NCBI GenBank assembly: GCA_030448005.1
Contig: JAUJNT010000002.1
Coordinates: 486,729-524,103 of the forward strand
Origin: Thermoleophilaceae bacterium
Lineage (GTDB): Bacteria > Actinomycetota > Thermoleophilia > Solirubrobacterales > Thermoleophilaceae
Length of the DNA: 37,375 bases
Direction of reading: 5' to 3'
Under the pieces are notes generated by a model. The model saw nothing but the letters and a program-made list of their open reading frames with translations, made no database searches and had not been told where the DNA came from. A program made the translations under genes and the position numbers. Of this stretch, positions 661-996 are shown one piece after another. Every line of letters starts with the position of its first letter. Position 1 is the first letter of the stretch.

Positions 661-733
661 GTGACCGTAGCTCAGCCTGGTAGAGCGCCTGCCTGAAACG
701 CAGGGCGGCGCAGGTTCGATCCTTGCCGGTCAC
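661..733 (+). tRNA. tRNA-Phe(GAA)
   Basis: A complete 73-nt cloverleaf can be drawn by eye. The acceptor is GTGACCG/CGGTCAC, the D arm GCTC...GAGC, the anticodon arm CCTGC-CTGAAAC-GCAGG gives anticodon GAA, the variable loop has 5 nt, and the T arm is GCAGG-TTCGATC-CTTGC with one G-T pair. No CCA is encoded. It is the first of a tight run of tRNA-type genes leading to the Ro60 gene. It could be the housekeeping tRNA-Phe or a spare copy belonging to this locus; the sequence alone does not decide. Confidence 0.85.
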
Positions 734-739
734 ATCCAC

Positions 740-812
740 GGCTTCGTAGCTCAACCGGAAGAGCAAGGCGCCTCTTAAGCCCGAGGTTGCAGGTTCGACC
801 CCTGCCGAGGCC
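740..812 (+). tRNA. tRNA-like gene, possible tRNA-Lys(CTT)
   Basis: The acceptor (GGCTTCG/CGAGGCC, one wobble), D arm (GCTC/GAGC) and T arm (GCAGG-TTCGACC-CCTGC) are sound. The anticodon arm is weak: with loop CTCTTAA, reading anticodon CTT, the stem GGCGC/GCCCG has two mismatches (G-G and C-C). Either this tRNA decodes poorly or it has drifted into a non-decoding mimic. It starts 6 nt after the tRNA-Phe gene and encodes no CCA. Confidence 0.55.
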
Positions 813-825
813 ATCGCATCGCCCG

Positions 826-895
826 TGCGCGGTGGAGAAACGGGATCTCGCGAGCCTCATGAGCTCGAGAAGCAGGTTCGACTCCTGCCCGCGCG
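826..895 (+). tRNA. tRNA-Met(CAT)-like
   Basis: This 70-nt cloverleaf has acceptor TGCGCGG/CCGCGCG, D arm GAGA-AACGGGA-TCTC, anticodon arm CGAGC-CTCATGA-GCTCG (anticodon CAT) and T arm GCAGG-TTCGACT-CCTGC. All stems are paired, with one wobble at the acceptor end. CAT can mean elongator Met, initiator Met or a lysidine-modified Ile tRNA; the features visible here do not separate them. The D stem is unlike its neighbours. No CCA is encoded. Confidence 0.7.
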
Positions 896-900
896 ACCTT

Positions 901-996
901 CTTGGGACGTAGCTCATCGGAAACCCCTTGCCTCCGTAGTGTGAACGGCCAGCACGCGCCCTTTGTACGGCCGAAGAGCGGGTTCGAATCCTGGCG
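901..996 (+). other. degenerate tRNA-like element
   Basis: A good T-loop (TTCGAAT at 981-987, 4 of 5 stem pairs) and a TAGCTC D-arm start (909-914) flank a region about 20 nt too long for a tRNA. The D stem does not close and the acceptor strands (TGGGACG and CGGGCCT) pair at only four positions. Possible anticodon loops are CTCCGTA or TTTGTAC, neither convincing. A 5-bp stem CGGCC/GGCCG encloses part of the insert. It is either a decayed tRNA or another non-decoding tRNA mimic of the kind seen just downstream. Confidence 0.4.

Follow-up and report, generated by a model that had tools for sequence, protein, structure and literature searches.

Why should a bacterial Ro60 locus begin with tRNA genes? 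The window, by which we mean the whole 37,375-nt stretch of a Thermoleophilaceae genome analyzed here, carries near its start several tRNA genes, sound to degenerate, followed by Y RNA-like units and the genes for Ro60 and the RNA ligase RtcB (Table 1). The original prediction, made from the letters alone, had read these genes as possible reserve tRNAs replacing ones cut by anticodon nucleases, or as bait for such nucleases, with ordinary tRNA genes that seeded the Y RNAs as the alternative. We compared the array with the rest of its genome (G000; 3.23 Mb, 96% complete, 47 matches to Rfam family RF00005) and with Ro60 loci elsewhere.

Table 1 Features at the head of the window (positions counted from its first letter)
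Feature	Position	Strand	Evidence and remarks
Promoter-like element TTGCAA-17 nt-TATTTT	162–190	+	TTGCNN-17-TANNNT at the matching place in nine class loci
Leader ORF, 20 codons (MTNDRFDSKTDETLAGGFCG, then stop)	223–285	+	ORF of 20–42 aa at the same place in nine loci
Antiterminator strand CCCTCGCCGG	260–269	+	Pairs with the terminator 5' arm; pairing kept in eight distinct loci
Intrinsic terminator (attenuator) GAGGGCGGCC..GGCCGCCCTC TTTCGTTC	316–350	+	Terminator stem covaries at two pairs
tRNA-Phe(GAA)	661–734	+	ARAGORN; RF00005, 61.9 bits; all stems intact; anticodon loop CTGAAAC (C38)
tRNA-Lys(CTT)	740–813	+	ARAGORN; RF00005, 51.0 bits; two anticodon-stem mismatches
tRNA-Met(CAT)	826–898	+	ARAGORN; RF00005, 54.5 bits; lacks the GGG/CCC initiator stem; G37; T1.G72
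5' tRNA fragment (acceptor/D-arm)	901–929	+	Sequence; no intact fold
Decayed tRNA, Gln(TTG)/Glu-like	930–1000	+	RF00005, 22.5 bits, E 0.17, below gathering score
Y RNA, permuted tRNA-like domain (YrlA-like)	1028–1157	+	RF02553, E 4e-5 at 1044–1143, below gathering score
Y RNA	1180–1294	+	Nematode Y-like RNA RF01656, E 0.0015, below gathering score; fold z -4.07
Y RNA-like unit with T-arm	1305–1405	+	Ends CGGGCCGnnGC..GGTTATC and CACACGACCGCAG; fold z -0.98, alone not significant
Ro60 (rsr), TROVE and vWA, 554 aa	1450–3114	+	PF05731, E 1.8e-41; PF25045, E 6.2e-61
tRNA bearing an anticodon-loop insert of about 33 nt	3215–3319	+	RF00005, 45.5 bits
RtcB RNA ligase	3338–4696	+	PF01139, E 1.2e-60

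The Phe, Lys and Met genes are real tRNA genes, called by both finders (ARAGORN and the RF00005 model). The two anticodon-stem mismatches foreseen in the Lys gene are a G.G and a C.C, and the short gaps between the genes measure 5 nt (Phe-Lys) and 12 nt (Lys-Met). An encoded CCA is absent from the window tRNAs, as had been noted, but its absence is uninformative because 0/42 other tRNAs of the same genome encode CCA, and we dropped it as a clue. The degenerate fourth gene is indeed degenerate, but it consists of two pieces, a 5' fragment and a decayed gene. The decayed gene has a Gln(TTG)-like anticodon loop and a D-arm and loop of Gln(TTG)/Glu type; it lies nearest to Glu-type tRNAs (71–75%), and the stretch 902–1003 folds worse than its shuffles. 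A related locus (L218, about 3980–4040) holds another tRNA 3' remnant, a T-arm with acceptor strand, past its attenuator; decay of tRNA copies is thus a repeated feature of such units. Judged by sequence, Phe looks like the only fully sound tRNA of this genome's array, Lys and Met could be either functional or in decay, and the remaining relics are dead; the array, small and partly dead, may thus at present contribute one tRNA. A minus-strand tRNA near 60–130 (T-arm-like GGTTCGATTCC, minus strand) was dropped, having no ARAGORN or Rfam match and a plus-strand promoter close by. Position 1 of the window directly follows a run of N (L131), and the assembly is uncertain at the window start because both flanks of this gap repeat each other.

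Comparison of the Phe, Lys and Met genes with the rest of the genome showed that the window copies are supernumerary. Elsewhere the genome carries another Phe(GAA), a Lys(CTT) (L011), a Lys(TTT) (L005) and two CAT tRNAs; the window isotypes are therefore redundant with the chromosome, as in tRNA array units in the sense of Tran and Morgado. The window Phe shares 86% identity with its counterpart in a related Ro60 locus (L063) and 70% with that of its own genome, suggesting that it groups with the Ro60-locus lineage and not with its own genome's. The window Met is likewise closer to an array Met (L046, 73%) than to the two CAT genes of its genome (58–60%). The Lys lineage was left unassigned because the gene is equally close (77%) to the L063 Lys and to its own genome's Lys(CTT), and closer still (84%) to a host Lys of another genome (L146). 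C38 of the window Phe and G37 of the window Met differ from the own-genome forms, while U33 is retained. We considered whether the window Met could be the missing initiator tRNA and ruled this out, as its anticodon stem lacks GGG/CCC. No intact initiator tRNA gene was found in the assembly, whose sole canonical initiator-tRNA sequence is a 3' half overlapping an ORF end (GGGS-stop; G000:C1:589235, L132), perhaps reflecting a gap in the assembly or a scar left by integration.

Ro60 itself is patchily distributed. It was found in 4/101 near relatives (counting the window genome and two weak partial matches), in no other family member, in 8/399 genomes of the class and in 2/396 of the phylum (the window genome being counted in each). 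Within the class, at least one same-strand tRNA adjoins every full Ro60 and also the truncated Ro60 of L130; the tRNA sets vary among these loci. In L130 (G082:C29, 2132–2425) a large internal deletion leaves Ro60 as a short ORF, and the promoter, leader, tRNA-Arg and Y RNAs remain. To look further afield we used 41 Ro60 loci elsewhere, retrieved from the genome_contigs set with the window Ro60 as query and many of them from related Myxococcota, so that the following counts are not independent: at least two tRNAs lie within 3 kb in 21/41 loci versus 1.5% of equal background windows of G000, and at least five in 19/41 versus 0.2%. The linkage is found across phyla, and 280 of the 281 tRNAs near Ro60 share its orientation. 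On one IMG/VR contig (L093) a 26-tRNA array lies on the opposite strand from Ro60, unlike nearly all other loci. The window genes are thus neither the sole copies of their isotypes nor linked to rsr in this genome alone. tRNAs are not obligatory beside Ro60, because about half of the Ro60 loci, including one from the same phylum in which no tRNA adjoins Ro60 (L223), are without a tRNA cluster.

Per locus, as many as 31 tRNAs are predicted in the larger arrays; as many as 19 amino acids are covered within 5 kb, and the gene order recurs (Tyr-Gln-Phe-Lys-Gly-Thr-[Ro60]-Asn-Glu-...). At least 20 tRNAs are present in each of about 11 related Ro60 loci; the window, with three scan-positive genes plus relics, is smaller than the about 20 or more densely packed genes of a tRNA array unit. 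Sets of up to about 30 tRNA genes in related operons suggest a built-in replacement store for damaged tRNAs. A different explanation, which we consider rather unlikely, is that the tRNAs are functionless relics of a mobile array of the phage or plasmid type that rides along with a useful Ro60/RtcB unit. The decayed Gln-like gene, the 5' fragment and the two Lys stem mismatches would fit such cargo, as would the truncation of Ro60 in L130, the differing tRNA sets of the class loci and the HNH endonuclease genes in the gaps of five of the larger arrays examined (L042, L047, L050, L062 and L081). Against mere cargo speak the retention of at least one tRNA-scan-positive gene beside every class Ro60 locus found, the anticodons, order and covarying stems kept in the larger arrays, and the conserved leader and attenuator directly upstream of the tRNAs.

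To see whether the array tRNAs are of an ordinary kind, we compared them with host tRNAs at normally constant positions. C33 occurs in 96/358 array tRNAs versus 1/141 host tRNAs (p 1e-14) and G55 in 67/358 versus 0/141 (p 7e-11), with C56 and A58 retained; these p-values overstate independence because the array sequences are mutually related, and the host sets except that of G000 were taken from higher-scoring genes and are hence biased to canonical forms. Taken genome by genome, L046, L063 and L081 each show the C33 shift in the same direction relative to their own hosts, with small numbers. The stems covary: double-sided changes were seen in 332/459 stem pairs across 27 isoacceptor groups with 95–100% pairing, although part of this covariation may come from differing origins within a group. 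Departures from T8 in the array tRNAs and D-stem counts were left out, as the arm parser can shift there. These patterns point to tRNAs that are maintained as such yet altered at two normally constant positions. In the L046 and L074 arrays, Ile(TAT), plus Met in L046, has A54 (ATCGA T-loops), and Phe has CTCAAAA T-loops, forms that are unusual even among array tRNAs.

A similar neighbourhood occurs in phages, and 344 phage records contain a Ro60 relative. In Sparky, Ser-Pro-Trp-Tyr tRNAs precede Ro60; Samisti12 also has tRNAs beside Ro60, and in Gordonia phage BlueNGold (L182, 9741–14817) a Ro-like gene is followed by tRNA-Asn, a tmRNA and over 25 tRNAs. Most Myxococcota arrays, like BlueNGold, have Asn as the first tRNA past Ro60. 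No annotated tRNA was found near the Ro60 relative of phages Cashline and Phabba within the stretch read. Alike as these clusters are in placing tRNAs beside Ro60, C33 or G55 occurs in 0/60 phage tRNAs scanned near it, unlike in the bacterial arrays, and a phage origin of the two changes is not supported; C33 is common only in the larger bacterial arrays. Altered anticodon loops of phage tRNAs have been proposed to allow escape from host tRNA nucleases (PMC10264068), and phages are rescued by their tRNAs when host defences cut tRNA (PMC11555353). In the window, Phe, Lys and Met retain T33 and T55 and carry neither change, and only Phe looks fully sound by sequence; we therefore do not extend the case for nuclease resistance to these three.

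Beyond the tRNAs, the series was said to grade into tRNA mimics. This holds in substance, as Y RNA-like units come next, but the mimic at 1028–1157 (terminal stem CTGCGG/CCGCAG) has its T-arm before its D-arm and is therefore not a simple end-point of tRNA decay. The terminal motifs CGGGCCGnnGC...GGTTATC and CACACGACCG are common to all three units and are present in relatives too, so that the window has Y RNAs beside Ro60 by its YrlA-like and Y-like matches, both below the gathering score, and by these shared motifs. Many 'intron tRNAs' reported by ARAGORN upstream of Ro60 elsewhere are probably artefacts, in which the D-arm of a permuted Y RNA is joined to the next T-arm. That ordinary tRNA genes came to lie beside Ro60 by chance and seeded the Y RNAs through duplication seems to us very improbable: one relative has tRNA genes interleaved with Y RNA genes and others have them side by side, which would fit such seeding, but the permuted arm order weakens it, as do the linkage far above background, tRNAs surplus to the genome's own set and the apparent Ro60-locus lineage of the window Phe.

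Downstream, a Ro60 with TROVE and vWA domains and an adjacent RtcB give the window the composition of a Ro60/Y RNA/RtcB repair operon. RtcB also lies near Ro60 in L046, L064, L068, L069 and L097; it is absent beside Ro60 in the other class loci read, and in the Myxococcota arrays none lies within 5 kb. The insert-bearing tRNA occupies the slot of tRNA-Arg(TCG) in a relative (L063, 7135–7211), and its insert is intron-like and sits beside an RNA ligase gene, between Ro60 and rtcB. We also asked whether damaged-looking tRNAs and mimics could serve as bait that titrates anticodon nucleases or feeds Ro60, with no part in translation. The Lys stem mismatches, the insert-bearing tRNA beside rtcB and the permuted mimic are what bait might look like, and competitive nuclease inhibition by YrlA has been suggested (PMC7790460). 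The arrays of relatives, however, retain anticodons that would decode up to 19 amino acids and have largely sound stems, which is beyond what bait would need, and we regard this explanation as improbable. Far downstream, at 35198–36145, the window has a transposase-like ORF, presumably of the IS1595/ISXO2 type by its look.

Upstream of the first tRNA, the window and eight other class loci (L063, L129, L130, L218, L219, L220, L221 and L222), representing five lineages because L129 and L219–L222 belong to one genus and L220 and L221 are near-identical, share one layout in 9/9 cases: a promoter, an ORF, a gap of 24–35 nt and a strong intrinsic terminator. The promoter-like element of the window was not reported by a strict sigma-70 scan. 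Eight distinct loci entered the covariation analysis. The 5' arm of the terminator (GCGAGGG, ACGAGGG or GATGAGGG) can pair with the final ORF codons (CCCTCGC, CCCTCGT or CCCTCATC). Offsets 5, 6, 7 and 9 of this pairing show double-sided changes, and the leader frame is kept, because the stop codon sits 23 or 26 nt past the antiterminator anchor in every locus. Perfect antiterminator cores of relatives span 8–9 nt (shuffle p about 0.01 each); that of the window spans 6 nt (shuffle p 0.13), with three more pairs past one C.A mismatch. A leader ORF and mutually exclusive antiterminator and terminator pairings, conserved and covarying, are thus present, with one mismatch in the window pairing, and the layout is probably a translation-coupled attenuator. 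The trp and whiB7 leaders are leader-peptide transcription attenuators that sense translation, and they have the same leader ORF, antiterminator and terminator; the one in the window would differ in controlling tRNAs and Ro60 and in its mixed leader codons, free of single-amino-acid runs, which would suit a general sensor. A search for the leader pattern across 299 class genomes lacked specificity: most hits resemble GC-rich words arising by chance, and leaders were recognized only in G000 and G082. We found no published description of the upstream promoter, leader and attenuator.

On balance, the sequences lead us to think that the window probably represents a shrunken reserve-tRNA bank in a horizontally acquired, translation-sensing Ro60/Y RNA/RtcB operon for RNA damage. 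The tRNAs, Y RNAs, Ro60 and RtcB lie in one orientation behind one promoter and attenuator, with parallels in many phyla, and the reserve part of the original prediction gains support from the supernumerary genes, from a Ro60 linkage in relatives far beyond chance and from a leader and attenuator expected to respond to translation. Transcription would begin just past the promoter-like element, cross the leader ORF and attenuator and continue through the tRNAs, Y RNAs, Ro60 and RtcB as a single transcript. When tRNA damage or stalled translation makes the ribosome lag behind RNA polymerase in the leader, the antiterminator would form and the operon would be switched on; here we infer which ribosome state gives read-through, i.e., whether stalling turns the operon on or off. 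The induced operon could then provide fresh tRNAs of separate lineage to replace the damaged ones in the cell, Ro60 and the Y RNAs would act in surveillance or decay of damaged RNA, and RtcB would reseal. Several observations weigh against this reading: three tRNAs are left, one with two stem mismatches and all without C33 or G55; the window antiterminator has its mismatch, and taken by itself the perfect core falls short of significance; RtcB adjoins Ro60 in the window and five other loci but not in the other class loci read; and about half of the Ro60 loci lack a tRNA cluster.

Known systems resemble parts of this unit. In Salmonella, the rsr-yrlBA-rtcBA operon, which damaged tRNAs turn on (PMC7790460), likewise brings together Ro60, a YrlA-like RNA, RtcB and a link to damaged tRNAs, whereas tRNA genes and a leader-peptide attenuator belong to the window unit, whose promoter-like element is of the TTGCNN-17-TANNNT type. 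The Anabaena trn operon, with 26 tRNAs on a megaplasmid, is silent until translation stress and has rtcB under the same repressor, TrcR (PMC10272220). It is alike in being a surplus tRNA bank, induced in Anabaena together with rtcB by translation stress, but it has the TrcR repressor, Ro60 goes unmentioned in that paper, and the window array is much smaller. The tRNA array units described from mycobacteria and from their phages and plasmids (PMC5966550, PMC12803027) share with the larger Ro60-linked arrays redundant isotypes, HNH endonucleases and horizontal spread; those papers mention neither Ro60 nor RtcB, and the window has three tRNAs rather than 20 or more. In the literature searched we found no paper joining Ro60 to tRNA arrays; an earlier description is possible, so the novelty of the link is provisional.

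For the family of loci as a whole, we give an even chance to a mobile island for recovery from tRNA damage, in which a translation-sensing leader attenuator would run spare tRNAs together with Ro60, Y RNA and sometimes RtcB; its tRNAs would at most cover almost the entire code and would often carry U33C and U55G, changes that possibly escape tRNA-cutting enzymes, and the window would be a reduced version. Such a unit would join two questions, namely the role of bacterial Ro60 and Y RNA and the reason for surplus tRNA banks, and it offers a direct test: do tRNA cleavage or ribosome stalling turn on the spare tRNAs and Ro60 together? The U33C and U55G changes, rare in hosts and absent from the scanned phage tRNAs, would give a second testable handle, on tRNA-nuclease resistance.
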